NCBI RefSeq assembly: GCF_032050975.1
Contig: NZ_CP116967.1
Span: 2,601,001-2,665,000, forward strand
Direction: 5' to 3'
DNA length: 64,000 bases
Source: Candidatus Nitrospira allomarina
Lineage (GTDB): Bacteria > Nitrospirota > Nitrospiria > Nitrospirales > UBA8639
This document shows positions 1,861 to 63,109 of the stretch, in pieces. The number at the start of each line of letters is the position of its first letter. Within the stretch, counting starts at the first letter, position 1. The position numbers and the translations under genes were made by a program. Below the pieces are notes generated by a model. It was not told the origin of the DNA. It saw nothing but the letters and a program-made list of their open reading frames with translations, and did no database searches.

Positions 1861-1970
1861 GATTTGTCCTCCTTATTTTTGGAAGGCGATTGTTCCAAAA
1901 AATAAATTGTAAAATAACCTCCTTCATACTCAGGCAAATTATGAAGGGGATTCAGTTAACCACTAACTGG

Positions 1971-1980
1971 TAAAAACCCG
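1971..1980 (-). promoter_or_regulatory. Variant of the CCAGGGTT motif (CGGGTTTTTA)
   Basis: On the minus strand this reads ACGGGTTTTTACCAGTTAG, resembling the copy at 34365 (CCAGGGTTTTTGTTAGTTG). It points toward the 31-residue peptide gene, about 110 bases before its start. A near match only. Confidence 0.25.
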
Positions 1981-2180
1981 TGAATCTTCATTATTTACCC
2001 CTAACGTTGAACTTCTATTGAGTCATGTTGACGAATTCCTTCCTGTACCGCTCCAAAAATTTAGAATCACAGGCTGGTGTGATGGTTTGTCAATTCTAAT
2101 GAGGGTCCCTGAGTAATGATGATTTTTTGTATGCTGAATGAAATCCAACCGTGGCACAATTCACATTCGGAAATTGAATG

Positions 2181-3965: not shown

Positions 3966-4335
3966 GTAATTGTCTCTGGTAAAAATGAAATGACTTTTTG
4001 GTAAACTATGCGGTGCAATTGATTAGGCCTATTAATTCTTCCACGAACCTGAACGACACGTGTTCGGCATTGTGTCTCAATTTTCTATAGCCAAAGGGGT
4101 GTGCTTAAAAGATTCTCCTCAGCATCTCCGCACGATTATTTCCGATGGCTCTTGTTGTGAGGTCATATTCCATTCTCTTGTAAAAAACCCGGAGTTAGAA
4201 TTACCTCTCATCTGTACCGTCCCTGTACCGTCCCTTTTCCTTCAACCATCGTGGATCTTTATTGTGGGGGAAGGGCCGAAGAACGCCTTCCCCCATAAAC
4301 TCTGCTTTGATTTCACAGATCGGGGCTCTGACATC
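3966..4335. other. Intergenic between HAD/ATPase gene and katE
   Basis: 370 bases. They hold the upstream region of the HAD/ATPase gene, a hairpin after katE (4265-4295) and a motif-like CCGGGTTTTTTA (minus strand, 4181-4192). No gene is supported. Confidence 0.5.
4265..4295 (-). terminator. Hairpin after katE
   Basis: TGGGGGAAGG at 4265-4274 pairs perfectly with CCTTCCCCCA at 4286-4295. It stands about 40 bases after the catalase stop. There is no strong T run, so this is a probable rather than typical terminator. Confidence 0.5.
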
Positions 4336-6465
4336 TTATGAAGCAGCGGCGCGATCCCAGAAACGAAGCTTTCGGCACGCCTCAAGAAATTGAGTTGATC
4401 CCTTCCCCTTATCAAGGGCAATGAAGCCAGCGTCTCGACTCTCCTGCACTCCGGCCTTCTGGAACAGGGGAGTGACGGCTTCGACGTATCCAATAAACTT
4501 CATGTGAGCAAAGGCATCAGCCACAAAATCTCTGGCGGCAGGAACCTTGGCCAGGGCCAGCACTCCTTCCTCGGAAGGTAAAAGTGCCACTGCGTCGTAC
4601 AGCACCGATGGCCCACCATCAATTTTTTGGTCCGCTTCAATCCACGTCCCGTCGCTGGCTTCCACTCCGCCCACACCGGGGGCCACAATCTCCATGATTG
4701 CCCCTTCCGACTTGACGGCGGATTTGAGTGATTTAAATAATTTTATATCGACTCCGTCGGTGATGAGCACTCCAAGCTTTCGCCCTTTGAAGGTTTTGGG
4801 ACTATTGAGAAGAATGCTGAGCGCGGGTGATTGCTCAAGGTCCTCTCGTGTGGGTTTTGCCGCATCCGCAGGCTTAGGCATGTCCTTCAGGCGCAGACCC
4901 TTGGCCACTTGTTTAGCCAAATCCTGGTGAATATTTAGCAGATGAGAAACCATACGAGTCCGGATTTCAGGATGTTCCACTTTGCTTAATTCAAAGACTA
5001 AGGCATTTGCAATGTGGGTTTGTTCGACTTCGGTCTGGCTGATATAAAATTGTCGGGCCTGGCTGTAATGATCGGCAAAAGTTTCGGACCGGACCCGTAC
5101 TTTTGGCCCTTCCTCATCGGCAGGGTATGAGGTAAATCCCTTCTCCGGGGATTCTCGGGGACCTCCCGCTTCGCCGGGCCAAGAATTTGGTTCATAGTTG
5201 GCTCGGCCTTTCGGATTCTGCATGGCCATATGGCCGTCCTGTTGAAAATGGCTGAACGGACACTTGGGCGCGTTGATGGGGATGTGAGTAAAATTCGGAC
5301 TGCCAAGCCGTTTGAGCTGAGTGTCGAGGTAGGAAAAGTTCCGCCCTTGTAGTAATGGGTCATTTGAAAAATCGATGCCCGGCACAATATTTTGCGTACA
5401 AAAGGCAACCTGTTCGGTCTCAGCAAAGAAATTGTCCACACAGCGATCCAGAACGAGCCGGCCGACACGTCGAACTGGTAGAATTTCTTCTGGAATCAGT
5501 TTGGTCGCATCAAGCACATCAAAATTGAATTGTTGAGCAAAATCATCATCAAAAAGCTGAAGGCCCAGTTCCCATTCCGGATAATCACCCTGCTGAATGG
5601 CACTCCATAAATCCCGGCGATGGAAATCCGGGTCGGCTCCATTAATTTTTACGGCTTCGTTCCATACCACGGATTGCATCCCCAGTTTGGGTTTCCAGTG
5701 AAATTTCACGAACGTCGATTTTCCCTGACCATTGATAAGCCGGAATGTGTGAACGCCAAACCCTTCCATGAAACGAAACGATCGGGGAATAGCCCTGTCG
5801 GACATGATCCACATGATCATATGCATACTTTCAGGGGTCAGGGAGATAAAGTCCCAAAAGTTATCATGCGCGGTTTGCGCCTGGGGAAAGCCACGATCCG
5901 GTTCCGCTTTGGCTGCGTGAACGAGGTCTGGAAATTTCATGGCGTCCTGAATAAAAAACACGGGCATATTATTGCCCACAAGATCCCAATTCCCCTCTTT
6001 GGTATACAGCTTTACGGCAAATCCCCTGACGTCTCTTGCCAAATCGAAGGAGCCCTTATTACCGGCTACCGTAGAAAAGCGGACGAACGCCGGAGTTTTA
6101 TCACGTGGTCGTTGAAAGAGGTCGGCTTTGGTAACATCTGCCAGAGATTCGTAGTTTTCAAAATATCCATGAGCCCCGAACCCGCGGGCATGCACAACCC
6201 TTTCTGGAATCCGTTCATGGTCAAAGTGAAACATCTTCTCCCGAAAGTGAAAGTCTTCCAATGCGCTTGGACCCCGCTCTCCGATTTTCAGCGAGTTTTG
6301 GTCATCCGCGACAGGAATACCCTGCTGAGTCGTCAATACCGGATTGGTTTTTCCGCTTGTCTGGTGGACTTCCCCTCCTGTGCCGATCTCGACAGTTTGG
6401 TCTGCATATTTCGCGGTTTTACGTGTGGAAGGAGGAGAAGATTTAACGGGTTGCTTTTTGGCCAT
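4336..6465 (-). CDS. katE: Large-subunit catalase HPII
   Basis: 709 residues, the length expected of clade 2 large catalases. It converts hydrogen peroxide to water and oxygen in the cytoplasm using haem. Visible features are the catalytic His in [11 protein letters not shown], the distal Asn in VGNNMPVFF, the haem-proximal Tyr in [12 protein letters not shown], and a C-terminal flavodoxin/DJ-1-like domain (about 560-700) beginning [22 protein letters not shown] precedes the ATG at good spacing. It is divergent from the peroxiredoxin-like gene at 6759, so the two may share control. A CCAGGGTT site (6571-6578) points toward katE, with a TATAAG box about 30 bases farther on. Confidence 0.95.
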
Positions 6466-6570
6466 GCGAATCGCTCCTTTTTATTAATGATTTCGTGATG
6501 AATAGGTGAGTAACATATGACGCTAAACTATCTATCTTATAGGACCAATTGAAGAGGCCATACTGTCAGA

Positions 6571-6578
6571 AACCCTGG
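6571..6578 (-). promoter_or_regulatory. CCAGGGTT motif upstream of katE
   Basis: Exact octamer read on the minus strand (AACCCTGG on plus), 105 bases before the katE start. TATAAG follows in the same direction. It is one of six exact copies I saw in intergenic DNA. Confidence 0.35.
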
Positions 6579-6758
6579 TAAAAAAATTCAGAAACTGGTA
6601 TGGGGTTACAGGAGTTCACGCAAGGGTTACGGCAGTCACAACCTTTTGCATTCCGGGATAAGATTTGTTTAAGTAACTTGAAAGTTGGAGTTCAGAGACA
6701 CACGCCAAAATATCTGCTCTGAAACACTTGTGCTAAACATTAAAGGAGGTCGAAAAGC

Positions 6759-7325
6759 ATGATGATGCAAATTGGACAAACGATCACGGATGGCACCTAC
6801 CAGGCTTTCCACAAAGAACAAATCCGTTCACTGACCTTGTCGGAATGTCGGGGAAAGTGGTTGGTGCTGGTGTTTTATCCGGGAGATTTCACGTTTATTT
6901 ATCCAACCGAATTGCAAGAACTGGGAGAATTGTATACGGAATTTCAAAAACTCGGGGCTGAGGTTCTTAGCGTCAGCACCGATTCGGTCTTTGTGCATAA
7001 GGCCTGGCACGATACCTCGCCTGCTATAAAAAATATTCAATTCCCCATGGTAGCTGATACGACGGGCCGGCTAAGCCGGGAGTTTGGAACCTATTTGGAG
7101 GATGAAGGGGTATCGTTACGCGGGAGCTTTCTTATCGATCCGGATGGTGTGCTAAAAGTTGGAGAAATACACGATAATAGCATTGGACGAAATGGTCGAG
7201 AGCTCTTACGAAAGCTTCAGGCTGCTGTCCATGTTAGAGAAGGAAAAGGCGAGGTATGTCCCGCCAGCTGGTCCCCCGGCGATAAGACCTTGAAGCCAGG
7301 CTTGGATCTGGTCGGAAAAATTTAA
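6759..7325 (+). CDS. AhpC-like peroxiredoxin lacking the peroxidatic cysteine
   Basis: 188 residues with the full AhpC/2-Cys peroxiredoxin fold. The signature FYPxDFTFxCPTE reads FYPGDFTFIYPTE, so the catalytic Cys is Tyr48 (codon TAT at 6900-6902). The C-terminal VCP motif with the resolving-type Cys167 is kept. The surrounding motifs are well preserved (STDS, FPMVADTTGRLSREFG, RGSFLIDPDG), so the gene is not simply decaying. As written it cannot reduce peroxides by the normal thiol chemistry. It may act as a chaperone, sensor or decoy, or the base may be a recent mutation. AAAGGAGG lies ten bases before the ATG. Confidence 0.9.
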   Translation: MMMQIGQTITDGTYQAFHKEQIRSLTLSECRGKWLVLVFYPGDFTFIYPTELQELGELYTEFQKLGAEVLSVSTDSVFVHKAWHDTSPAIKNIQFPMVADTTGRLSREFGTYLEDEGVSLRGSFLIDPDGVLKVGEIHDNSIGRNGRELLRKLQAAVHVREGKGEVCPASWSPGDKTLKPGLDLVGKI

Positions 7326-10773: not shown

Positions 10774-11553
10774 CTAGGGCCGTTGCTCCGTAGCCACGGG
10801 GTCGGTAATCCCAAGTTCGTCGCCCACTTCCCGTACCTTCTGCACGAGCCCGGAATGGTCGGAATCGGCCGAAGACTGCTGGTTTCGCGAAATTTCTCCG
10901 GTCTCCATTAATTGGCGAAAGCGTCGAAGGTCCTCGCTTACCTGACGTGCAGGGTCATCGGGAAGCAGCTTCGCCATTGCTGCGCCAAATACTCCTCCCG
11001 GCGGAGTCCATCGACAATCCAGGGAGAGAATCGTTCCGCGATTTCCGGCCGCGCGTCGAAGGGACAAGACTCCCTCGTGTTCAAGATTGGAATGTAGTTC
11101 AATCGTCCGCCATTTGATCAGTTCGTTTTGACGTTCTTCAAGAATCTCAGCTTCCCAATGAAAAATTTTATTGAAGGGGCCACGTGCCTGCCAACGGGAA
11201 TGTCTCTCGTCGAGTTCCTGGACCGCGACGATATTTTGCATGAACCGTGGTAAATTTTTAAAATCCCGCCAAAACGAATAGAGGTCCTCCTGTGATCGAT
11301 TGATTGTAATGGACTCTCGGAAATGCACAGTTCTATTCAGGGGATGCCGTATATGAGATCCATGCAATTCGTCAATTCCAATAGCCTCATACAGGCGGCT
11401 ATGGCTTGTAAGACCATGGATGACTAATCCGCTCCCGAATAACAGGGGTAGAATACCGCGCCTATGTTGTTGCCCTAGGCCATGAACAATTAAACCACTG
11501 CCGATTCCTAAGCAAAGGATCTGCTCCAGAGCCCCGATATTTGTCCTTTTCAT
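10774..11553 (-). CDS. SRPBCC (polyketide cyclase/START-like) membrane-linked protein
   Basis: 259 residues. The ATG at 11553 is chosen because GGAG lies at proper spacing and the 15 upstream codons look unnatural. Residues 1-50 hold two short hydrophobic hairpins (GLGSGLIVHGL, GSGLVIHGL), possibly membrane-inserting. Residues 75-215 are an SRPBCC ligand-binding domain with the family pattern 'FWRDFKNLPRFMQNI' and 'WRTIELHSNLEHEGVL'. This family binds hydrophobic ligands and is common next to stress proteins with DUF2892 anchors. No ligand can be named. It is downstream of, but not tightly linked to, the glucosidase gene. Confidence 0.8.
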   Translation of the reverse strand: MKRTNIGALEQILCLGIGSGLIVHGLGQQHRRGILPLLFGSGLVIHGLTSHSRLYEAIGIDELHGSHIRHPLNRTVHFRESITINRSQEDLYSFWRDFKNLPRFMQNIVAVQELDERHSRWQARGPFNKIFHWEAEILEERQNELIKWRTIELHSNLEHEGVLSLRRAAGNRGTILSLDCRWTPPGGVFGAAMAKLLPDDPARQVSEDLRRFRQLMETGEISRNQQSSADSDHSGLVQKVREVGDELGITDPVATEQRP

Positions 11554-11713
11554 ATGACATCTCCAATACCAATAATTCCGGCCCATATAATCGGGCAATT
11601 GGCAGTCATGCCATCCTGATCACAATACGGGACACCATACACCCTCCCATCCACCTCGGTTACTGGTAATATCCCTGGATATAATCCAGAAACAGAACAA
11701 TGAAGATATTTCT

Positions 11714-15580: not shown

Positions 15581-15857
15581 GACGTAAGTCCTGCGGAGGG
15601 GAAGTTAGAATGCCTCCCACTTTCCTGCATCCTGTTTCTCTCCTGAATCTTCTCATGTTTCACGGCAAACCCCCAGACGGAGGCGAGCTGGAATATCCTG
15701 CTGCCACGTCAACTTGCAAGGGTTATGTATAGTTGCGTTTCCGCTCGATTTCAAAAATCATCTTCTCATAAGCACATGTTTCCGGATACAGAATTTGGGG
15801 TTTACCGCATGGTCTTTTATTTTTTAGAGAAGAAACCAACGAGAAAGGGAAAGTTCT
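15581..15857. other. Intergenic upstream of the DUF2231 gene
   Basis: 277 bases. A 40-codon frame at 15610-15732 has GGAGG ten bases upstream but an unconvincing product. A motif-like AAGGGTTATGTATAGTT lies near 15717, pointing to the DUF2231 gene. Confidence 0.35.
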
Positions 15858-16316
15858 ATGATAACTCCCGCCAGTATTAAAGGGCATCCATTGCACGTCA
15901 TGTTGATTCCCTTGCCTCTCGGTTTATGGATTTTTTCATGGGTGGCCGATCTGATCTATATCAGCGGGTGGGGAGGAGAAGAATGGCGCATCGTGGGCTT
16001 CTATACTCTCAGTGGAGGTGTGGTAGGTGCCTTACTGGCTGCCATTCCGGGATATCTTGATTTTAGGTCGCTCATCAATCCTCATTCAAAAAAAATTGGC
16101 ATCCGGCATATGACCCTTAATTTGATCATCGTGGCATTATTTGGGGTGAATGCCTGGATTCGTGCAGTGGATCCAACATGGGAAGCAGGATTTATTCTTT
16201 CGACGTTGGGAGTCCTCCTTCTGGCAATATCCGGATGGTTAGGCGGAGAACTGGTGTATAAGCACGGCGTGGGCGTTGATACGGGGCATGTTTTGCGCAC
16301 CACGGAAGAACGATAA
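15858..16316 (+). CDS. DUF2231 family membrane protein
   Basis: 152 residues with four predicted transmembrane segments (about 15-33, 45-66, 88-104, 113-132). The N-terminal IKGHPLHVMLIPLPLGLW is the DUF2231 signature, including the paired His and Pro. The family's function is not settled, and it often lies near redox and cytochrome-like genes. The start follows AAAGGGAAAG at short spacing. It is a monocistronic unit between the debranching enzyme and the solute-binding lipoprotein. Confidence 0.85.
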   Translation: MITPASIKGHPLHVMLIPLPLGLWIFSWVADLIYISGWGGEEWRIVGFYTLSGGVVGALLAAIPGYLDFRSLINPHSKKIGIRHMTLNLIIVALFGVNAWIRAVDPTWEAGFILSTLGVLLLAISGWLGGELVYKHGVGVDTGHVLRTTEER

Positions 16317-22934: not shown

Positions 22935-23114
22935 CTACCATTTATCGACCCCGTTACCAATTACACGCTTCTTTTCACCGGCCTCATCGTTTCCACAAAA
23001 CCCCCGGTCTTGTTTTTTACTTTCAAGGTATTCGTACGCAAGGTAAATGGCCGCCCCCATCGCACGCTTAGGGAGAATGGGGTTGGTGTCTTCGATGTTT
23101 TCATTGATCACCAC
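22935..23114 (-). CDS. Small hypothetical protein, GTG start
   Basis: 59 residues. A GTG at 23114 follows GAGGG at about nine bases. The product reads MVINENIEDTNPILPKRAMG, then AAIYLAYEYLESKKQ, then a polar tail ending VDKW. The mix of an amphipathic helix and a charged tail is protein-like, unlike other frames here. It lies 190 bases downstream of the TPP enzyme on the same strand. The family is unknown. Confidence 0.45.
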   Translation of the reverse strand: MVINENIEDTNPILPKRAMGAAIYLAYEYLESKKQDRGFCGNDEAGEKKRVIGNGVDKW

Positions 23115-23306
23115 AATTTGAATCCCTCACCCAATCCTCATAAAAACACTGATTTTTTCAATAATCGTGCAACTGGACAGAACCCGTGACGAAGAAAAGA
23201 GTGGCCCAGAGAAGAAAGGAGAAGGGAACAAAATTTTCGAGCTCCTGATTTCTGAAGCCTCGCCAGCGTCCTCTTCTCAAGGCTACGAATTTCTCCACCT
23301 TATCTG

Positions 23307-25716: not shown

Positions 25717-26850
25717 TCACGATCCTGAGGGACTCTGAGCATGGATGAGTCGGGGCTTTTTAACCGGCGGACGGCGAAGGCTTTGCCGAAGCGTTGGACG
25801 CCGTTTTCGCTCCACGCCTTTGAGCGGGACCGGTTGGCCTTTGTGGGCTGAACGATACAGAGCTTCGATAATGCGGACATCATGGAGACCCTCATCACCT
25901 GCCGGTTCAGGAACCGTATCATTTACAATGCAATCCGAAAATTTCAAAAGTTGTGGAGCAAATTGATCACGTTTGGAAAAGGTGTGCTTGTTCTCTTTCC
26001 CGTTCACCGTAAGGTAATGAGTAATGGGGTCGACATATTCGTAGGCCGATGTCACCCGCAGTTGCCCCTTGGTCCCCACAATCCGAAACTCGGAAACGTC
26101 AGCGGCTCCAAAACTACAGATGAAGGTGGCCAACCGATCATCGGGAAATTGAAGCGTCACCGCGCTCATTTCTTCCACTTCGTCGAATCTGCCGGTACCC
26201 TGTCCGGCGGTGTGGGCAAATACCTGAATAGGTTCCGCCTGAAATAGATTCCGGGCGGCATTCACACAATAAATGCCGATATCCCACAGCGTTCCTCCAC
26301 CGGTCTCTTCCCGTAACCGGATATTATTTTTATCTTTGACCGGAAGGCTAAATGCAGATTGAAAGTACCGGGGTGTGCCGATTTTCCCTGATTGAACCAT
26401 TTGTATGGCCCGAAGGTTGGCCTCTTCAAAATGAAGCCGATAGGCGACCATTAATTTGACATCATGATGGTCCGCTGTGCGAATCATGGTTTCACATTCC
26501 TTGACTGATAAGGCCATGGGTTTTTCGCACAATACATGGACGCCCGCTTTGGCAGCTCTGATGGTATATTCGCAGTGCAAATGATTGGGAAGCGCAATAT
26601 ACACCGCATCAATTTCTTCCTTTTCCAGGCATTCTTCATATTGTTCATAGGAATAGAGACCGTTGATGCCGTATTTTTTTCCCAATTCCTTCAATTTTTT
26701 GGGATCATCGGAGATTAAAGCTGCCAATGCCGAGTTTTTCTTTGCATGTCCAAATGCCGGAAGTACGGCGACTTGAGCGATATAACCCAATCCCACCACC
26801 GCGTAACGAATTTTCCTGGTGGGAAATGTCCTTTTGAGCGATCGTGCCAT
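25717..26850 (-). CDS. Gfo/Idh/MocA family oxidoreductase
   Basis: 377 residues. The N-terminal Rossmann domain starts YAVVGLGYIAQVAVLPAF, and the catalytic signature CEKPMAL follows at about 110. The C-terminal alpha/beta domain contains GGGTLWDIGIYCVNAARNLF, as in glucose-fructose oxidoreductases. It probably oxidises or epimerises a sugar or cyclitol with NAD(P). The C-terminal 35 residues are Arg/Pro/Lys-rich and unusual. AAGGAG precedes the ATG. It is the first gene of the operon, and a CCAGGGTT site (26942-26949) lies 91 bases upstream and points toward it. Confidence 0.9.
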   Translation of the reverse strand: MARSLKRTFPTRKIRYAVVGLGYIAQVAVLPAFGHAKKNSALAALISDDPKKLKELGKKYGINGLYSYEQYEECLEKEEIDAVYIALPNHLHCEYTIRAAKAGVHVLCEKPMALSVKECETMIRTADHHDVKLMVAYRLHFEEANLRAIQMVQSGKIGTPRYFQSAFSLPVKDKNNIRLREETGGGTLWDIGIYCVNAARNLFQAEPIQVFAHTAGQGTGRFDEVEEMSAVTLQFPDDRLATFICSFGAADVSEFRIVGTKGQLRVTSAYEYVDPITHYLTVNGKENKHTFSKRDQFAPQLLKFSDCIVNDTVPEPAGDEGLHDVRIIEALYRSAHKGQPVPLKGVERKRRPTLRQSLRRPPVKKPRLIHAQSPSGS

Positions 26851-26941
26851 CTGGGAGCTCCTTGAAATCGTGTCAAAAGAGTAAGACCGACCAATTACCT
26901 AAAGCTTGTATCAGCGTTTTTATCGAAAATGAACTGGAAAG

Positions 26942-26949
26942 AACCCTGG
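26942..26949 (-). promoter_or_regulatory. CCAGGGTT motif upstream of the Gfo/Idh operon
   Basis: Exact octamer on the minus strand within the palindrome GAACCagGGTTC, about 91 bases before the oxidoreductase start. GATAAAAACG follows downstream in the same direction. Confidence 0.35.
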
Positions 26950-28170: not shown

Positions 28171-28455
28171 TTATCTTTCTCTTGAAAAAGGTATAGATTT
28201 TCCACGTGAATCTATTTGGTTTTGAAAGTGTTCAGTAATGGGAAATGATATATAGGAAATTTGTCCGGGGTTCTGATCCCTCAACAAATCATGAACCGTT
28301 ACCGTTTCCACTGGACCAGTCGTGCCAAAAATAGAAAGAAGCATCACTATTGTGCCTCCTGCCAGGCTAAGGGTTAACGCCAGTCCGACTAATTCTTTGG
28401 TGGTCTTGAGTGAGTTCATAAATGTTTTCCTAAAAGTGAGATTCTGAATGTTCAT
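28171..28455 (-). pseudogene. Truncated, divergent PRC-barrel paralogue
   Basis: 94 residues from the ATG at 28455, which has GGGAGGGGGG upstream. A membrane segment (LVGLALTLSLAGGTIVMLL) is followed by VHDLLRDQNPGQISYISFP. This aligns with VKDLLIDQTTGQISYIVLS of the neighbouring PRC protein, and the downstream GKSIPFSRER aligns with its ENYSIPWAEV. The first barrel strand and everything after the barrel are missing. It may be a remnant after duplication, or a minimal anchored barrel. The frame is intact. Confidence 0.55.
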
Positions 28456-28585
28456 AAGGCCCCCCTCCCATTTTCTTCTATTCAGATTGTAGAGGATCGA
28501 AAAAGAAATGGGACTGAACAAAACCCTTGCATCGGATGCTATCTTCCCTTAAAAATTCGACCGGACTGTAAATAAATCCTTTTTC

Positions 28586-28593
28586 CCAGGGTT
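28586..28593 (+). promoter_or_regulatory. CCAGGGTT motif upstream of the 28676 gene
   Basis: Exact octamer on the plus strand, 83 bases before the proline-rich anchored protein, followed by GATAATGTC. Confidence 0.35.
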
Positions 28594-28675
28594 CTTGTTA
28601 GATGCTTTTGTTTTTTTTTCGGACGATAATGTCTGGAGGGAGTATGGAATCAAATTAAGAAAAGAGGTGAAAACC

Positions 28676-34230: not shown

Positions 34231-34364
34231 AACACACGAAAATGAGAATCTGGAGTGTGTGGCTGATTCCGTTCGCGGGTCATCTTCTCTGCCCCAAATA
34301 ACCCAAGTGTGTCCCACGCGGCCTGAATTGACTACTAGCAGAAACCCTGAAGTTTCAAGGGATG

Positions 34365-34372
34365 CCAGGGTT
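34365..34372 (+). promoter_or_regulatory. CCAGGGTT motif upstream of the DUF2892-type gene
   Basis: Exact octamer on the plus strand, 108 bases before the start at 34480. A second, inverted near match (AACCCTGA) stands 22 bases upstream at 34343-34350, so the pair faces both divergent genes. Confidence 0.35.
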
Positions 34373-34479
34373 TTTGTTAGTTGTTGACTCTTTTGTCTTT
34401 CCGTATCTTCGGAAAGACACAGAGCGATCGCCCACGGCATGGGAGTGCGTCGTTCCACAGAACAAAATGGAGGCCATAT

Positions 34480-34968
34480 ATGATTACTTCAGCAACGACC
34501 ACACGAGTTGAGGAACATACCGACGCTGACATCAATGAGGAAATTTATAACCGCACAAAAAATAACGTCCTGTTGTATGCCTCGGCCGGACCTTCGGCCA
34601 TTGATCGACGGTTAAGGGAGCTAGAGATGGAATGGGATATCGAAAGAGTTTTGGAAGCCAATGCTGCCTCGTTTTCCCTCATGGGTCTGACACTGGGCGC
34701 GTTTATTGATCGACGGTGGTTCATATTTCCCGCCGCCGTAGCCGGTTTTCTCCTGCAACATGCTATACAGGGTTGGTGCCCGCCGGTTCCCCTGTTCCGG
34801 CGAATGGGAATACGGACCGCACATGAGATTCAACAGGAGCGTCATGCGTTAAAGGCATTGCGGGGAGATTATCGGGATGTGGCCGAATTCAAGGCCGAAG
34901 TCAATGGGGCGGACGCTCTGCAGGTGACTCGAGCATTTGAGGCGGCCGGAAATAACTCCTCCTCCTGA
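34480..34968 (+). CDS. DUF2892 (YgaP-like) membrane protein
   Basis: 162 residues from the ATG at 34480 (GGAGG upstream). A polar N-terminus of about 60 residues precedes a membrane hairpin (FSLMGLTLGAFID, FIFPAAVAGFLLQHAIQGW) and the typical CPPVPLFRRMGIRTAHEI end of this family. Proteins of this type often accompany rhodanese or sulfur genes, and here an MBL/rhodanese gene follows 42 bases later. Confidence 0.75.
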   Translation: MITSATTTRVEEHTDADINEEIYNRTKNNVLLYASAGPSAIDRRLRELEMEWDIERVLEANAASFSLMGLTLGAFIDRRWFIFPAAVAGFLLQHAIQGWCPPVPLFRRMGIRTAHEIQQERHALKALRGDYRDVAEFKAEVNGADALQVTRAFEAAGNNSSS

Positions 34969-38455: not shown

Positions 38456-39886
38456 TTATGGTCGATATCCATCAGGTCGATAATCATAATCCTTCCCGCT
38501 GGAACGCCGGGATTGATACTGATCGGCCCCCTGCCTCTGAGGATCATACTGCCTTCTTGAGGTGGTGGTATTGTACCGGTCAGCCGACCGATCTTTGGAA
38601 TCCTGGTAATTCCGTTCACGACTTTGAGAATACATGGACCGCTGATTTCCGCGATTCCGGTCTTCCCCCTCATCGTAGTCCCGTGTGTTTGACCGGGACT
38701 GGTTCCGATAGTTCCCACGATCCCGGTTGCTTCGGTTATAGGAATTTTGCTGATCAGCCCCTTCATACTGAAAGGCACGATCATGAGGAGGGAACTCGGT
38801 CGGGCTGAAACTGTCTCTTCTTGTTCGAAAATCCTCCGCATTTTGATCCTGGTACTGCCGTTGTCGGTCATCTCCGGAGCGGCTCATCCGCGACCGATCG
38901 GAATCGTATCGGTCATAGCCTTTCCGATTCCCTTCAAATGTGGGCGTATCCTCATAATACCGATCGCGATCGGAATAGAATTGATCAAGATTTTCATTCC
39001 ATTTTGCTAAATTCTTTCGTTGCTCTTCGGTTAAATCCCAATGTTTTTGGACGTGTGCCCCGGCATTTTCCCCCTCTTCCAGAATAGGAAGATTGCCGAT
39101 TTGATTCTGAGTCACTTTCAGCTTAAAGGACTTATTGCCGGATCCTTCCAGGGCCTGCCATGGAACCGAAATTAATTGTCCATCTGCTTTTCTCACGATG
39201 GCATAGGTCAGATCTCCATTATTGTTCGTCATCACTCGATACACACTTCCGATTTCCTGGCCATCAGAGGATTTAACCGAATAATTGGCATCCTTGTCGG
39301 AAATATCCAGGCCGCCTAATTGACCGGCCGGGAGGACAAAATAGTCATCTCCCATTCTTCCGGCATTAAAATAATTTTCGTCGTTTTGGCCCATCGATCG
39401 GACAAAGGTGGCCTTCCCATCTTCATCGATTTTCGCCTTGACCAATTCTCCCTTTTCAAAATTACACTCGCCAAATGTAAATCCGGCCTTGGAAGAACTT
39501 TCCTGCGACCCCGATGAAGTCTGACTTGAGCCCTGCCCGCTTGCACTTCCGAACAGACTGCTACTTGAAGTTTGTTCCGTGCTTGATGAATCCTGACTTG
39601 AGGATTCTTGACTCATCTTGGATGTCTTCCCTTGTGGACACAATCGGTTGGTTTCGCCAGTAATGCGAAATGTAATGCGTTCTCCATTACTGGCGCGAAG
39701 GGTGATTTGGTCGCCGTTCTTCTTTGAAATTTCTCCCTGGATGATTTGTTCCATGGCATTTGTCCGGCCCGATTCCGACCGATCCGATCGATCGCGTGAC
39801 ATGCCGGCTTCGGCCAATAACGGTAATGTCAGCAATGGAATGCCGGCAAGAATGACTGATCTGGCCATGTTGTTCCGCGTGAACAT
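38456..39886 (-). CDS. Exported PRC-barrel protein with Arg/Asp/Tyr-rich tail
   Basis: 476 residues. Signal peptide to about 28 (LLTLPLLAEAG). Residues 45-80 are an OB-like strand set (QGEISKKNGDQITLR). A Ser/Gln-rich linker is at about 90-135. A PRC-barrel is at about 190-265 (SVKSSDGQEIGSVYRVM ... ISVPWQAL). The last 160 residues are a strongly biased RDxR/Ser/Tyr/Gln tail without order. Such tails can condense or bind polyanions. GGAGGTG precedes the ATG by about ten bases. A CCAGGGTT site at 39977-39984 points toward this gene. Function unknown. Confidence 0.75.
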   Translation of the reverse strand: MFTRNNMARSVILAGIPLLTLPLLAEAGMSRDRSDRSESGRTNAMEQIIQGEISKKNGDQITLRASNGERITFRITGETNRLCPQGKTSKMSQESSSQDSSSTEQTSSSSLFGSASGQGSSQTSSGSQESSSKAGFTFGECNFEKGELVKAKIDEDGKATFVRSMGQNDENYFNAGRMGDDYFVLPAGQLGGLDISDKDANYSVKSSDGQEIGSVYRVMTNNNGDLTYAIVRKADGQLISVPWQALEGSGNKSFKLKVTQNQIGNLPILEEGENAGAHVQKHWDLTEEQRKNLAKWNENLDQFYSDRDRYYEDTPTFEGNRKGYDRYDSDRSRMSRSGDDRQRQYQDQNAEDFRTRRDSFSPTEFPPHDRAFQYEGADQQNSYNRSNRDRGNYRNQSRSNTRDYDEGEDRNRGNQRSMYSQSRERNYQDSKDRSADRYNTTTSRRQYDPQRQGADQYQSRRSSGKDYDYRPDGYRP

Positions 39887-39976
39887 AATGTGGCACCTCC
39901 TTTTACAAAGTTAAAAATTTGTACAGTGATTACTTTCCTCAGGATAATTGATTTATGCACCCGTACAACTGGAGAA

Positions 39977-39984
39977 AACCCTGG
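39977..39984 (-). promoter_or_regulatory. CCAGGGTT motif between the divergent PRC genes
   Basis: Exact octamer on the minus strand in AAACCagGGTTT symmetry, 91 bases before the start at 39886 and followed by CATAAAT in that direction. A looser AAGGGTTTGTC on the plus strand (about 40012) faces the other PRC gene. Confidence 0.35.
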
Positions 39985-40098
39985 TTTGGGAATCCTCTTT
40001 TACAAGGGTTTGTCCCAGTTTGGTCATGTAGAAAGAACATGTAATATCCCGTCAGATTGTTTCTTTTATTATCCATGCCGGTCCACAAGGAGGGTGTT

Positions 40099-40458
40099 AT
40101 GACCACTAAAATTCGTCAGGTTCTTTCATCAAGTTCTATTGTCGGTACCACGGTCCAGAATATGGGAAGAGAAGACCTGGGAGAGATTAAAGATCTTATG
40201 ATCGACCTCTCAGGCGGACGCATTGCCTATGCGGTGTTATCGTTCGGCGGATTTTTAGGAATGGGAGATAAACTTTTTGCGATTCCCTGGGAGGCATTTC
40301 AGGTCGTACAAGAGGAGGAAGTGTTGTTATTAAATGTGGCAAAGGAAAAGTTGGAACAGGCTCCCGGTTTTGACAAAGATAACTGGCCTGATATGGCGGA
40401 TGTCACCTGGGGAAAAAGTATCCATGCCTATTATGGTTATGACCCTTATTGGGATTAA
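40099..40458 (+). CDS. PRC-barrel domain protein (YlmC/YmxH-like)
   Basis: 119 residues from the ATG at 40099, preceded by AAGGAGGG at good spacing. Barrel stretches are IVGTTVQNMGREDLGEIKDL, GGRIAYAVLSFGGF, DKLFAIPWEAFQV and EEVLLLNV. The C-terminus is polar with His and Tyr (HAYYGYDPYWD). It has no signal peptide, so it is cytoplasmic, unlike the other PRC genes nearby. It is divergent from the exported PRC gene. Confidence 0.8.
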   Translation: MTTKIRQVLSSSSIVGTTVQNMGREDLGEIKDLMIDLSGGRIAYAVLSFGGFLGMGDKLFAIPWEAFQVVQEEEVLLLNVAKEKLEQAPGFDKDNWPDMADVTWGKSIHAYYGYDPYWD

Positions 40459-42190: not shown

Positions 42191-42198
42191 CCAGGGTT
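42191..42198 (+). promoter_or_regulatory. CCAGGGTT motif between hpnR and the cupin gene
   Basis: Exact octamer on the plus strand, 79 bases before the cupin start. Confidence 0.3.
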
Positions 42199-42276
42199 TT
42201 GGTGAGTGTCTGCCATTGGTGCAATCAGTTATGGTCTCTCCAGACAACCATCTACACACAGGAGGCGTGGGAACCT

Positions 42277-42627
42277 ATGGTCGATACGAGTATTAAAAAA
42301 GTCCAATCAGATCATTCTCCCAAGGGTTCAATGGGGCAGAAATATTTAGCCACCGGCGTTGGATTAGCCATGCGACTATGGGAACAATTGCCTGTTGGGC
42401 AAACACAGGAATCTTCATCCAGGGATTACGAGACTATCGGATATGTGATCCACGGTCGTGCTGAGCTGCAGCTGGAAGGTCAAACAATTTTGCTGAATGC
42501 GGGAGATTGTTGGGTGGTCCCCAAAGGCGCGAGTCACAGCTATACCATTCTTGAAACATTTACCGCCGTTGAAGCGACCCACCCTCCAGCCCATGTGCAT
42601 GGTCGCGATGAAATCCCCCCCTCTTGA
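42277..42627 (+). CDS. Cupin-domain protein
   Basis: 116 residues from the ATG at 42277 (GGAGGCG about 12 bases upstream). A single cupin barrel: YETIGYVIHGRAELQLEG is motif 1 and AGDCWVVPKGASHSY is motif 2. One metal-site His is replaced or shifted in motif 1, but His in motif 2 is kept. The end is AHVHGRDEIPPS. It probably binds a small ligand or metal. Its place in a pathway is unknown. Confidence 0.8.
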   Translation: MVDTSIKKVQSDHSPKGSMGQKYLATGVGLAMRLWEQLPVGQTQESSSRDYETIGYVIHGRAELQLEGQTILLNAGDCWVVPKGASHSYTILETFTAVEATHPPAHVHGRDEIPPS

Positions 42628-57644: not shown

Positions 57645-58565
57645 TTAGGCCATCTGAAGGCTCCGATTGAAATTATGACGTTTTTTATCGGTAGAGAAAT
57701 TTTTTAGGGCCGGCCAAAACTCCTCTTCCTCTCTCAACGAATGAGGAGAGACATGAAAATTTAACGTCACGTCGGGGTTGAGAAGGAATGAGTCGCCAAC
57801 TTCCGTAATGACCTTCATGCAGGACAGACAAAGAGGTAAATGCCACATCCGATAATCAAATCCATAGCCTTCTCTAAACATCTCCTGCCATTTCGAACCC
57901 TCCAGGCATGGGTAGTAGGGGGGATCGCTTTTTCGATAAAAGGGCAATAAGGTTTCGAGGTTCTCCCTCACCTGAAGATGAAATAAATCGGGATTAGAAG
58001 CTTGCTTTTCAATCAACGATTGGACCTCTTGGGTGGTTAATCCAACCTCCTCTGCCGCTTGGAACCATCCCTTTTGCCGCCATCGTGCAAAATTTTTATA
58101 GATGCGCTGGGTTTGCCCTTCTTCCAAACCAAGAAGGAATCCGACCTCGACCGGCTTCATGCCGTAAAAGTGGTAAAACAGGCAGATTAAGGCATCCCGG
58201 CTTAAGACGGCTCGGTTAAGCAGGCCATCCAGAAACCGGTACAACACAGGATTAGAGGTTGATGATGCTTTAGGTTCCTGGGGTCTTCCAAAATAATCTG
58301 AGATGAATCCATCCAACAACAGGGAAGGCCGGCAGGGAAGTTGGGAGGGACAATATTCGATAAACCGTTCCACCAGATCAAACGAAAGACGCAACAATAA
58401 CTTTTCATGTGCCGAATTGTCTGCCCATTGCCCCATATCTTGTAAAATACGCCGAATCAGGCCAGAAGAACGTTCCAGGAAATGAGAAAAGTTCCCTGGA
58501 ATGAACTGTTTGAATTCTTCAGGGGTATTAATCACACCGTTGGTTGATGGGGATAATGTCTTCAA
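57645..58565 (-). CDS. Protein with sigma-factor region 4-like helix-turn-helix
   Basis: 306 residues. TTG start at 58565 with AAGGAGG six bases upstream. Residues 120-165 (LSRDALICLFYHFYGMKPVE, VGFLLGLEEGQTQRIYKNF) have the order of sigma-70 region 4: helix, turn, then recognition helix. A Cys pair (CLSCMKV) lies at about 243. There is no evident region 2, so it is not a complete sigma factor. It may be a transcriptional regulator or anti-sigma-like protein. I do not recognise the family. The kinase gene diverges from it. Confidence 0.6.
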   Translation of the reverse strand: MKTLSPSTNGVINTPEEFKQFIPGNFSHFLERSSGLIRRILQDMGQWADNSAHEKLLLRLSFDLVERFIEYCPSQLPCRPSLLLDGFISDYFGRPQEPKASSTSNPVLYRFLDGLLNRAVLSRDALICLFYHFYGMKPVEVGFLLGLEEGQTQRIYKNFARWRQKGWFQAAEEVGLTTQEVQSLIEKQASNPDLFHLQVRENLETLLPFYRKSDPPYYPCLEGSKWQEMFREGYGFDYRMWHLPLCLSCMKVITEVGDSFLLNPDVTLNFHVSPHSLREEEEFWPALKNFSTDKKRHNFNRSLQMA

Positions 58566-58918
58566 GGTCGTCCTCCTTGCTTGGGGGAATGAAAATGAAT
58601 GAAAAAATGAAAAATCTTCATATAGCCATCAGCTGTCTTGTTGTACAAATTTATCGAGATGGCCCCCCCTTCTGTACTGTTAAAATCCCTTGATTCTCAA
58701 GATACCGACCCTAGGGTTGCCATGACCGGACCGCGGACGTTCCACGGGAGGAACCGGAGGACAGTCTCCCCGAAGAGGATGAAAAACCCTGATTTGTCAA
58801 CTGAAAAGACGGGGTAGGTGTGATAAGGTTGAGCCGGCCAAACCAGACTGATTAAATTGGGTTTCACATTACTTCATTGCCAGCCTCCCAGGCTCAATCA
58901 GGTGAAAGGACTGTGTCC
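58566..58918. promoter_or_regulatory. Divergent regulatory region of the sigma-like and kinase genes
   Basis: 353 bases. A near match to the motif (AACCCTGATTTGTC at about 58786) faces the minus strand. GAAAGGACTGTG precedes the kinase start. No gene was seen. Confidence 0.35.
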
Positions 58919-61900
58919 ATGACATCGTCAGGCCGGATGGCAGAAATCATTCGAAATAAAAATTGGCTGGAAACCCCACTCGGGGACATGGCCGAATGGC
59001 CCGTTCAGCTCAAAACCTCCGTCCAAATTATCCTGGATTCGAGATATCCCATGTTTGTTTGGTGGGGGAACCATCTGATTAATATTTATAACGATGCCTA
59101 TATCCCGATGTTGGGAAACCGACATCCCCATGCCTTGGGAGAATGTGCCTCGAAAGTTTGGGCCGATATTTGGGCGGTCATCGATCCGCAAGTGCAAATG
59201 GTGTTTCAAGAAGGGCGAGCCACGTGGAATGAGGAGCTGCCGCTTTTTATGAGCAGATACGGATTTTTGGAAGAAACTTTTTTTTCTTTTTCATACAGTC
59301 CGATCAAAAACGAGCAAGGAATGGTGGGGGGACTCTTCTGTGCTGTGACGGAAGAAACAAACCGGGTCTTAAAAGGGCGAAGACTCGATACCCTCCGGCA
59401 AATTTCCAAGGTCACGGAGCGGTCAGAGTCGGTTGAAGAAGTCTGCCGGTTGGCGACAGATGTCCTCGCCGGGAATCGGCTGGATATCCCTTTCAGCTTA
59501 ATATATCTGTGGGATCCTGAAGAGCGTTATGTACATTTAATGGCCCAATCCGGTTTGGCGTCTGAGTCCCCCTTCGCTCAGAACCGCCTGGCTGTGGATG
59601 GAGATCATCTCAATCCATTGCCGTGGTGGCCGGTGTCATTTTCACCAGGATGGTCGGAGGCCGAGTTTTCCATTCCCATTACTGTTGATTTGGATCCTTC
59701 CGCAGAAGCCTGGCCGGAGCCGTGTCGCCATGGCATGGTCTTACCCTTGCGGTCGTGGGAGCGAGAGAAAAAAGCCGGATATCTGATTGTGGGGACCAGC
59801 CCGAGATTACCGGTGAATGAAAGATATCGTGAATTTCTGAATTTGCTCGCCAATGGGATTTCCGGGTCTATCAACCGGGCGCAGGCGCTGACCGAAGAGC
59901 GAAAACGGAATCAAATGCTGGCGGACCTGAATCGTGCCAAAACGGAATTTTTCAGTAATGTGAGCCATGAGTTCCGAACACCTCTCACACTTATTCTGGG
60001 TTCTCTGGAAGAAGCGATGCAGAACACCACTTTCACCACGGCTCCAGGTGTGGAGGTGGCCCACCGAAATGCCGTGCGGATGCTGAGGCTGGTCAACACG
60101 CTATTGGACTTCTCCAGTCTGGAGGCAGGCCGCATGCAGGCCGTGTTTGAACCTGTGGATCTCTGTGATTTGACCATTGACCTGGCATCATCGTTTGAAT
60201 CCGCCATGAAACATGCCGGTCTGGAATTTTTCGTGTCCTGTTCCACGCTGTCTCAACCGGTCTATGTGGATCGGCCCTCCTGGGAAAAGATTATACTCAA
60301 TCTGCTTTCAAATGCCTTGAAATTTACGTTGCAAGGACGGGTGTCCGTGAAAGTCTGTCCTCATGCGGAGAGGGTGGAGGTCCGGATTGAGGATTCGGGA
60401 GTCGGTATGAGCCGGGAGACGCTTTCTCATGTGTTTGAGCGATTCTTTAGGGCCAAGGAAGCCCTGGGACGAACATTTGAAGGAACCGGAATCGGCCTGT
60501 CCTTAGTGAAAGAACTGGTAGAAATGCATGGCGGGAAGATTCATGTGGAGAGTGAACCCGGAAGGGGAAGTGTGTTTACCGTGACGTTGTCGTACGGGTT
60601 TCATCACCTTCCGCCGGAGCAGGTATGCCACACATCGACCCCCCCCAAGGACGGACGTTTGGCGAAGTCGTTCATTTTGGAGTCCGAGCAGTGGGCCGGA
60701 GCCACGGATCATGAACCGGGCGGTCAAAAAAATTTTCAGGATGAAGCAGTTCCCCTTCAGAAGACGGATCACTCCCGTCCCACCATTTTATTGGTGGAAG
60801 ACAATCGGGATATGCGAAATTATGTGACGCGATTACTGTCTGCCGACTATGAGGTGATTTCTGTCTGTGACGGGCAGGAAGCCTTGGAGCAGATTCACAC
60901 AGTCCGTCCACACCTTATTCTGAGTGATATCATGATGCCCCGGATGGATGGAAATGAATTGCTGACACGTCTTCGGTCCAATCAGGAATTACAATCGACG
61001 CCGTTTATCTTTCTATCGGCCAGGGCCGGGCAGGAGGCCGAAGTAGATGGGCTTCTGACCGGTGCGGATGACTATCTCGTCAAGCCGTTTTCCGCGGGTG
61101 AACTTCTGGCCAGAGTGAAAAAAACTCTAGGATTGGTCACCATGCGTCGTGCCGCGATCGAATATGAATCACGCTTCCAGCATCTGGCCCACCACCCCGA
61201 GATCATGACCTGGATTACGGACGCAGACGGGAACTGTGTCTTTCTCAGTCAAACCTGGTATGACTTTACCGGTCAGACAGAGGCAACCGGCCTCGGGGAT
61301 GGATGGATGTCTGCCGTTCACCCGCACGATCGCCCTTCCATTCAGCAGGCGTTTTACGAAGGGAATAGAAAAAGGCAATCCGTTCGACTGGAATACCGCC
61401 TTCGGAGTGCAAAGGGTGAGTATCACTATGTTCTGGATTCCGCCTCTCCCCGCTTTGAATCGGATGGCAGGTATCTGGGGTACGTCGGTTTGGTGCTGGA
61501 CCTTTCCTATCAGAAAGATATCGAAGAACAACAACGGGAAAGTGAAGAACGATTTCGTACTCTTGCCAATACAATTTCCCAATTTGCCTGGATGGGAGAC
61601 TCCACGGGATGGATTTTTTGGTACAACGCACGCTGGTACGAGTATACCGGGACCACGCTGAAGGACATGGAAGGGTGGGGCTGGAAGAAAGTCCATCACC
61701 CCGATCATGTCGACCGGGTTGTTGAAAAAATGCGCCGCTGTTTTCAAACCGGGCACATATGGGAAGACACCTTCCCTCTCAGAGGCAAGGACGGCGAATA
61801 CCGGTGGTTTCTCTCAAGGGCCGTGCCTATTCTAAATCAGGATGGTGAGGTGGTGCGATGGATCGGCACCAATACGGATATTACCGAATTAAAAACCACA

Positions 61901-63109
61901 CAGGAGCAACTACAAAATCTGACCAGCCAATTAGAAAGCCAAATTGCCAAACGCACAGAAGAACTCCGACAAAATCAATCGCGCCTGCAGGCACTCGTCG
62001 GCGAATTGATTCTGACGGAACAGCGGGAACGACGCAGAATTGCCGAGGAACTTCATGATTTTCTGGCCCAACTCCTTGTGGCCTGCCGTTTGCGAGTCAA
62101 CAGACTGGAGCAGGCGGTAAGTGCCGAAGGACAGGTGCTTCCGGTTCTTCACGAAATTGATCGCATTCTCGACCAATCGTTGGGATATACGCGCTCGCTG
62201 GTGGCCCAGCTGGTCCCATCGGTGTTGTATCAATTCGGGTTAATAAAGGCATTGCAATGGTTGGCCGAGGATATGAAACAATATGGACTCGCGGTGGAAG
62301 TCAGGATGGAGCGCGACCATCTGACGCTCACTGAGAATGAGGCGGTGCTTCTGTTTCAATCCATTCGTGAACTGATGATGAATGTGGTGAAACATGCCGG
62401 CGTGGACACCGTTTCTCTGGCCGTCAGCCTTTCCTCATCGAATGAGATTTGTATTGAAATTTCGGATCGGGGCGTTGGCTTCGATCCCGACCTCATCGAA
62501 CAACACAGTCATACATCCAATCAATTCGGACTGTTCAGTATTCGAGAGCGCATGTCTTTATTAGGCGGCCGGATGGTTATAGACTCGAGTGCCGGGTCCG
62601 GGACACGCATCCGCTTGTATGTAGCCTTATCCGAACAGGACCCATTACATGTGATCCTACCAGTTGCAGATGGTGCACCTTTAATACCCCAGAAAACCAA
62701 GCAGGGTTCGAGTCCGCAAATGTCCTCGGGCTATCGAGTCCTTTTAGTCGATGATCATGCGGTGGTTCGACAGGGATTACGAAGTCTGCTGGATGCCTGG
62801 TCCGATGTCGAGGTCGTCGGAGAAGCCGGGGATGGGATTGAAGCCATCCGTCTGACAGAATCTCTGCAACCGGATGTGGTGGTCATGGATATTAACATGC
62901 CAAACATGAATGGTATTGAGGCCACCAGGCACATTCGACAGAACCACCCAAATATTCATGTGATCGGATTATCGGTTCGTCAGGATAAGGAAACGGAACA
63001 AGCTATGTGTGAAGCCGGTGCGGCCGGATACTTGTCCAAGGAAACTGCCGGACAGGATCTGTATCGCATGATGGCCAATGTCGTCAGATTGCATCAACAC
63101 TTCACATAA
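58919..63109 (+). CDS. Double hybrid sensor histidine kinase
   Basis: 1396 residues from the ATG at 58919 (AAGGA eight bases upstream). Domains in order: PAS (about 7-150); GAF-like (160-335); HisKA with His350 in NVSHEFRTPLTLI; HATPase (455-570; GTGIGLSLVKELVEMHGG); receiver with Asp670 in LSDIMMPRMDG; two PAS (760-1000); a second, NarX-type HisKA_3 with His1046 in AEELHDFLAQLL; a second HATPase; a NarL-type receiver with Asp1324 in VMDINMPNMNG but no DNA-binding domain. There is no membrane segment, so it is cytoplasmic. It carries two separate kinase cores and two receivers in one chain. The signal is unknown. Confidence 0.9.
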   Translation: MTSSGRMAEIIRNKNWLETPLGDMAEWPVQLKTSVQIILDSRYPMFVWWGNHLINIYNDAYIPMLGNRHPHALGECASKVWADIWAVIDPQVQMVFQEGRATWNEELPLFMSRYGFLEETFFSFSYSPIKNEQGMVGGLFCAVTEETNRVLKGRRLDTLRQISKVTERSESVEEVCRLATDVLAGNRLDIPFSLIYLWDPEERYVHLMAQSGLASESPFAQNRLAVDGDHLNPLPWWPVSFSPGWSEAEFSIPITVDLDPSAEAWPEPCRHGMVLPLRSWEREKKAGYLIVGTSPRLPVNERYREFLNLLANGISGSINRAQALTEERKRNQMLADLNRAKTEFFSNVSHEFRTPLTLILGSLEEAMQNTTFTTAPGVEVAHRNAVRMLRLVNTLLDFSSLEAGRMQAVFEPVDLCDLTIDLASSFESAMKHAGLEFFVSCSTLSQPVYVDRPSWEKIILNLLSNALKFTLQGRVSVKVCPHAERVEVRIEDSGVGMSRETLSHVFERFFRAKEALGRTFEGTGIGLSLVKELVEMHGGKIHVESEPGRGSVFTVTLSYGFHHLPPEQVCHTSTPPKDGRLAKSFILESEQWAGATDHEPGGQKNFQDEAVPLQKTDHSRPTILLVEDNRDMRNYVTRLLSADYEVISVCDGQEALEQIHTVRPHLILSDIMMPRMDGNELLTRLRSNQELQSTPFIFLSARAGQEAEVDGLLTGADDYLVKPFSAGELLARVKKTLGLVTMRRAAIEYESRFQHLAHHPEIMTWITDADGNCVFLSQTWYDFTGQTEATGLGDGWMSAVHPHDRPSIQQAFYEGNRKRQSVRLEYRLRSAKGEYHYVLDSASPRFESDGRYLGYVGLVLDLSYQKDIEEQQRESEERFRTLANTISQFAWMGDSTGWIFWYNARWYEYTGTTLKDMEGWGWKKVHHPDHVDRVVEKMRRCFQTGHIWEDTFPLRGKDGEYRWFLSRAVPILNQDGEVVRWIGTNTDITELKTTQEQLQNLTSQLESQIAKRTEELRQNQSRLQALVGELILTEQRERRRIAEELHDFLAQLLVACRLRVNRLEQAVSAEGQVLPVLHEIDRILDQSLGYTRSLVAQLVPSVLYQFGLIKALQWLAEDMKQYGLAVEVRMERDHLTLTENEAVLLFQSIRELMMNVVKHAGVDTVSLAVSLSSSNEICIEISDRGVGFDPDLIEQHSHTSNQFGLFSIRERMSLLGGRMVIDSSAGSGTRIRLYVALSEQDPLHVILPVADGAPLIPQKTKQGSSPQMSSGYRVLLVDDHAVVRQGLRSLLDAWSDVEVVGEAGDGIEAIRLTESLQPDVVVMDINMPNMNGIEATRHIRQNHPNIHVIGLSVRQDKETEQAMCEAGAAGYLSKETAGQDLYRMMANVVRLHQHFT

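Follow-up and report, generated by a model that had tools for sequence, protein, structure and literature searches.

Results

Promoter boxes in the window

The window analyzed in this work is a stretch of 64,000 nucleotides, corresponding to positions 2,601,001-2,665,000 of the single-contig, 4.55-Mb genome of Candidatus Nitrospira allomarina. Among its genes are those for the catalase KatE and a divergent peroxiredoxin, an oxidoreductase, small membrane and PRC-like proteins, a cupin and a large multi-sensor histidine kinase. Many of these genes are faced by a copy of a 19-bp box, usually followed by a -10 element (Table 1). Genes were called with a home-made gene caller, which makes the start codons and some of the distances approximate.

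Table 1. Boxes of the window, with the -10 elements and genes that follow them, and the histidine kinase gene
Feature	Position	Strand	-10 element	Gene faced or description
Box CACGGGTTTTTACCAGTTA	1964-1982	-	CATAAT 1938-1943	31-aa membrane peptide gene (1765-1860) and 691-1560
Box CCAGGGTTTCTGACAGTAT	6560-6578	-	TATAAGAT, -10 region 6534-6541	katE catalase (4336-6465)
Degenerate box CAAGGGTT-N5-AGT	6621-6637	+	TAAGAT 6659-6664	Divergent peroxiredoxin (6759-7325)
Weak box CCAGGGATATTACCAGTAA	11660-11678	-		SRPBCC/YgaP-TM protein (10774-11553)
Box CAAGGGTTATGTATAGTTG	15717-15735	+		DUF2231 membrane protein (15858-16316)
Box CACGGGTTCTGTCCAGTTG	23170-23188	-	Not clear	59-aa ORF (22935-23114)
Box CCAGGGTTCTTTCCAGTTC	26931-26949	-	TACAAG 26905-26910	Gfo/Idh/MocA oxidoreductase (25717-26850)
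Box CAAGGGTTTTGTTCAGTCC	28511-28529	-	TACAAT 28486-28491	94-aa ORF (28171-28455); divergent with 28586
Box CCAGGGTTCTTGTTAGATG	28586-28604	+	GATAAT 28625-28630	Small membrane-anchored protein (likely start, ATG near 28673)
Weaker box TCAGGGTTTCTGCTAGTAG	34332-34350	-		Opposite strand, just left of 34365
Box CCAGGGTTTTTGTTAGTTG	34365-34383	+	TATCTT 34404-34409	YgaP-TM/DUF2892-like protein (34480-34968), then rhodanese/MBL-fold protein
Box CCAGGGTTTTCTCCAGTTG	39966-39984	-	TATCCT 39941-39946	Secreted PRC-like protein (38456-39886)
Box CAAGGGTTTGTCCCAGTTT	40003-40021	+	TAATAT 40042-40047	PRC-barrel protein (40099-40458); divergent with 39966
Box CCAGGGTTTTGGTGAGTGT	42191-42209	+	TATGGT 42230-42235	Cupin protein (42277-42627)
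Weak box CAAGGGATTTTAACAGTAC	58674-58692	-	TAAATT	Unannotated 306-aa protein (57645-58565)
Histidine kinase	58937-63109	+		PAS/GAF multi-sensor, two receivers and HisKA_3

Several of these boxes are retained ahead of the same genes elsewhere: that of katE in six genomes (G003, G004, G010, G014, G017 and G018) and in G027, which belongs to another genus, that of the Gfo/Idh/MocA oxidoreductase in G027, and that of the cupin gene in G010, G027 and G059. The box of the peroxiredoxin is one base shorter between its halves than the full-length versions found in G010 and G017, and it appears to be a natural spacing variant. Divergent pairs with one box per strand, their starts 37-75 bp apart, occur at 39966-40021 and 28511-28604 in the window and at 13419-13497 of L059. 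The 306-aa protein gives no Pfam match, and a stretch resembling a helix-turn-helix can be made out in it by eye.

From an octamer to a 19-bp box

The original prediction singled out an octamer, CCAGGGTT, as an intergenic repeat, and all six exact intergenic copies that it reported are in place. The window contains 11 exact copies, against 2.8 expected from dinucleotide shuffles, none of which (0/100) reached 11, and the six intergenic copies, in intergenic DNA that totals about 11.5 kb, compare with 0.45 expected (P ~8e-6), so that chance is excluded, as had been argued. Copies in coding DNA had been put at about two; we counted five (8689, 12071, 43935, 48340 and 56802), and the composite box is absent from all of them. 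Alignment of the intergenic copies brought out a second invariant block, and the octamer can be read as the upstream half of a 19-bp box, CMAGGGTTttnyCAGTTg. The bare octamer was rejected as the functional unit because the coding copies lack the second half. A full-text literature search for its sequence returned only unrelated papers among the matches listed.

The second half also redefines which sites belong. One of the four near matches originally proposed, at 1971, lies within a box on the minus strand (22.2 bits); those at 4181 (7.7 bits), 49656 (2.3 bits) and 58786 (3.1 bits) were rejected by score and have no second half-box, and with them falls the supposed member near zwf. Conversely, four true members carrying CAAGGGTT or CACGGGTT had been overlooked (15717, 23170, 28511 and 40003); weaker sites lie at 11660, 34332 and 58674.

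Beyond the window, the genome was sampled in stretches amounting to about 1.45 Mb and through whole-genome pattern searches, weak variants being counted within the stretches only. In this sample the intergenic excess anticipated for the octamer was found, although at the modest level of 2.5-fold (0.115 per kb in intergenic against 0.045 per kb in coding DNA), whereas the expected orientation bias was clear, with 22 of the 26 intergenic copies pointing to the next gene. Over the whole genome there are 257 copies of the octamer and 144 of its reversed control. The full box is far more selective. Because a low-threshold EM run, with 150 sites, blurred the motif, it gave way to a strict seed of 20 sites of this genome, from which a matrix was built on columns 1-19 only. 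At 17 bits or more over 1.26 Mb, 22 of its 25 matches are intergenic and three coding, as opposed to two intergenic and two coding matches (2/4 intergenic) for the reversed matrix.

Promoter layout

The first base of a TAnnnT -10 element lies 20 nt past the end of the box. TAnnnT begins at column 40 in 10 of 24 sites and at any other column in 0-2 of them, a signal that is independent of the definition of the box because only columns 1-19 entered that definition. Taken singly, T occurs at column 40 in 15 of these 24 sites, A at column 41 in 19 and T at column 45 in 17. Among the 33 strong sites of this genome, TAnnnT starts at column 40 in 15 and within columns 39-41 in 21, and a G at column 38, the -14 position of an extended -10 element, is present in 43 of 87 sites pooled over four genomes. 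No TAnnnT was found at column 40 in any of 64 weak coding matches. The claim that a -10-like box follows the octamer thus holds, now with a fixed position.

With +1 placed at about column 52, the center of the box falls near -42, and its terminal TTG, weak as a -35 element, lies 17 bp from the -10 element, that is, at the -35 position. Since this position is occupied by the 3' TTG, the octamer is not the -35-type element that had been suggested as one of its two possible roles; it starts 39 nt before the -10 hexamer, whereas a -35 element needs 16-18 bp. The other suggested role, that of an activator site, fits the sequence data well, as does the broader notion of an orientation-specific promoter element ahead of stress-type genes. 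A site that overlaps -35 at a fixed distance from a TAnnnT -10 element is the class II arrangement, and on sequence grounds we interpret the layout as that of an activator-dependent sigma-70-type promoter in which the box reaches over -35 with its AGTTG end. The box could not be sustained as a strict palindrome: direct-repeat signals at shifts of 12 bp (score 0.46) and 10 bp exceed its weak dyad symmetry (0.31 at center 10).

The fixed spacing between box and -10 element, together with the coordination of a stress regulon, might also be explained if an alternative sigma factor (ECF or group 3) recognized the whole array as its promoter, one whose -35 region would be unusually long. We regard this as very improbable, for the sites have features typical of the housekeeping sigma factor (the TAnnnT -10 element, the G at the -14 position and, at a 17-bp spacing, a TTG), CCAGGGTT, 31 bp from the -10 element, is too distant to be contacted by sigma as a -35 element, and the non-TAnnnT -10 element with a -35 element 16-17 bp upstream expected of ECF promoters is not what these sites display. 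No sigma-factor gene was recognized among the annotated or listed genes of the regulon, in an island that is partly annotated.

Genomic distribution and target genes

About 33 strong sites were located in this genome: 23 lie between 2.556 and 2.693 Mb, in a region of about 140 kb to which the window belongs, four at 194-198 kb, and each of the others on its own. The stretches scanned were in part chosen for their matches, and the clustering is seen also in the whole-genome pattern searches of this genome. The same searches reveal like clustering in G010 (472-620 kb), G031 (contig 2, 9-81 kb), G059 (contig 2, 18-124 kb) and G027 (contig 34, 48-131 kb). The targets comprise genes for katE, Fe-SOD, hemerythrin, PRC-barrel proteins, the Gfo/Idh oxidoreductase, cupin, DUF2231 and YgaP-TM/DUF2892-like proteins; for BON, Slp lipoprotein, DUF6335 and LTXXQ/metal-resistance proteins, an L,D-transpeptidase and a Zn-dependent dehydrogenase; and for DksA/TraR-type zinc finger and Zn-ribbon proteins. 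This gene content would correspond to a general-stress profile.

When the matrix of this genome was applied to three other genera (G031, G059 and G027; about 320 kb in all), 58 matches were obtained, 52 of which are intergenic and face the next gene; TAnnnT starts at column 40 in 19 of these 52 sites, at column 39 in 10 and at each of the other columns tested in 0-3. The merely 2.5-fold intergenic density of the bare octamer might suggest that the enrichment is due to chance or that the octamer belongs to a dispersed repeat. Orientation, fixed -10 spacing, replication in three genera and non-repeated flanks exclude this for the 19-bp box, and the likelihood we would still grant it is negligible. 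A dispersed intergenic repeat with a hairpin-forming part, GGACGGGGCGTCAATGGTTTTGGCCACTTTTGccgaaacAAAAGTGGC, does exist outside the window (L005 800-820, L025 3000-3020 and 6206-6226, L044 15287-15307); its matrix score is weak, it has no -10 element and the next gene points away, and it is unrelated to the box.

A candidate regulator

The top composite score (box plus -10 element) in all scanned DNA lies upstream of a gene on the minus strand at genome positions 2685373-2686032 (L059 15373-16032), which encodes a NarL/LuxR-type response regulator with receiver and GerE domains, here termed RR1, whose nearest named relatives come from Nitrospirales MAGs such as NPIRA03. Its neighbors are RR2, likewise a receiver and GerE protein, a B12-binding protein and an ABM-PAS-HisKA_3 kinase. 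The promoter of RR1, compared over seven species, retains 16 of 19 box positions and 5 of 6 -10 positions, whereas only 4/60, 5/20 and 10/60 positions are kept in its flanks and spacer.

Presence of the receiver and GerE protein tracks the box. If genomes with six or more composite sites are termed box-rich, all 11 family genomes with an RR1 orthologue qualify, against one of 28 without (Fisher P 7e-9, a value that overstates independence because the compared genomes are related). Outside the family, composite sites are near the control level. A helix of the form STVA[FY]HK in RR1 is confined to the 11 box-rich genomes with RR1, while RR2 and most compared paralogues have KTVEFHK.

It is unlikely, in our view, that an unlinked activator binds the box and that the RR1/RR2 locus is merely one of its targets. 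Such an arrangement would accommodate a kinase partner that is not strictly conserved, close counterparts of the kinase beside RR1 being limited to five of the tested genomes, and it would accommodate G012, the sole box-rich genome (12 sites) in which RR1 was not detected; the G012 assembly is fragmented, and the contig that carries its SOD box stops short of where RR1 would be expected. It sits poorly with the tight co-occurrence of the box with the RR1 helix type and with the location of the top composite site at RR1. Several box-rich genomes have no close kinase counterpart, and kinase presence was hence rejected as a marker of the regulon.

A somewhat stronger contender, though still a minority position in our assessment, retains the box and the class II mechanism and makes RR2, or an RR1-RR2 heterodimer, the binder instead of RR1 alone. 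RR2 is adjacent to RR1 and accompanies it in all 11 box-rich genomes with RR1, so that the pattern of presence cannot separate the two. Single boxes, moreover, adjoin related response regulators in G001, of the same genus, and in G052 and G058, of other families, where the proteins are RR2-like; the KTVEFHK helix of these regulators suggests that RR2-type proteins may also read the box. Against this, the box stands at the RR1 promoter and not at that of RR2 in seven species, and the helix specific to box-rich genomes is that of RR1. The single boxes hint at an older, smaller circuit; the one in G052 faces a Zn-ribbon protein resembling two targets of the genome studied here.

Two multi-sensor hybrid kinases of the same region, at 58937-63109 of the window and at L059 4399-6381, have HisKA_3 domains 39-42% identical to that of the RR1-adjacent kinase, and the former may possibly be an input kinase of the regulon. 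Just before the ABM-PAS-HisKA_3 kinase, near RR1, a protein with B12-binding_2 and B12-binding domains is encoded on the minus strand (L059 18704-19756), which could serve the regulon as a sensor of cobalamin or light.

Discussion

A main outcome of this analysis is the proposal of an autoregulated two-component stress regulon. Considering the box with its spacing, orientation and conservation, its co-occurrence with the RR1/RR2 locus and its presence at the RR1 promoter, we find it probable that a GerE-type response regulator, most likely RR1, acts on these promoters by class II activation. The histidine kinases of the region would, upon a presumed signal, phosphorylate RR1, and RR1-phosphate would bind the box centered near -42, from where it would contact or recruit RNA polymerase at promoters with a poor -35 element, as class II GerE activators do. 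Some 33 or more stress-protection promoters would in this manner be switched on, activation being a more plausible outcome than repression, and RR1 would drive its own promoter. Several points count against assigning the box to RR1: besides the constant company of RR2, the uneven occurrence of the kinase and the case of G012, the dyad of the box is weak, whereas lux- and Nar-type boxes are usually inverted repeats. More speculatively, and with less confidence than doubt, we suggest that nitrite-oxidizing Nitrospirales run a general stress response that dispenses with a dedicated sigma factor, in which multi-sensor kinases, perhaps with a B12 (light or cobalamin) input, would feed one autoregulated response regulator pair, and in which targets and regulator would travel across genera as a cluster of about 70-140 kb.

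Nitrospira are major nitrite oxidizers and difficult to grow. With a box, a rule for its spacing and a regulator candidate in hand, the regulon can be read from the sequence and put to the test in vitro, and shared control offers functional predictions for numerous small membrane and PRC/BON proteins. The conserved clustering of the promoters of one regulon around its own regulator is unusual. SODs, catalases and photolyases are listed in the paper on the genome and proteome of N. marina, whose text does not mention a sigma factor, a promoter, a regulon or a histidine kinase. Although the kind of system is known, the box, the regulon and the candidate regulator are apparently new: no description of them, or of transcriptional control of the Nitrospira stress response, was found in the literature searched, most subscription papers being beyond reach.

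Several known systems invite comparison with the one proposed here. General stress responses under sigma-factor control (RpoS, SigB, EcfG/PhyR) have similar targets (catalase, SOD, PRC, BON and small membrane proteins) and several sensor kinases. Unlike them, the Nitrospira regulon bears no sigma-factor signature, and combines a housekeeping-type -10 element with an activator box. The Pho box of PhoB and the sites of other OmpR-family activators consist, as here, of direct-repeat-like half-sites at a fixed spacing from the -10 element, but the output domain of that family is a winged helix, whereas that of the candidate RR1 is GerE. In architecture, on which alone the two were compared, there is a likeness to the DevR/DosR dormancy regulon of Mycobacterium, a multi-gene stress regulon under an autoregulated NarL-subfamily response regulator with a GerE helix-turn-helix and one type of box overlapping -35; DevR sites overlap the -35 element next to the start point (PMC3029386). 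The two systems differ in box sequence, in phylum and in the number of boxes per target (one, two or more under DevR, mostly one in Nitrospira), and most Nitrospira targets are packed into a single region of about 140 kb. The class II promoters of LuxR likewise carry a box of about 20 bp that overlaps -35, centered at -42.5 (PMC3376562) and in Nitrospira at about -42. The lux box, however, is an inverted repeat bound by the AHL-binding LuxR, whereas the Nitrospira box is weakly symmetric and its candidate regulator has a receiver domain.
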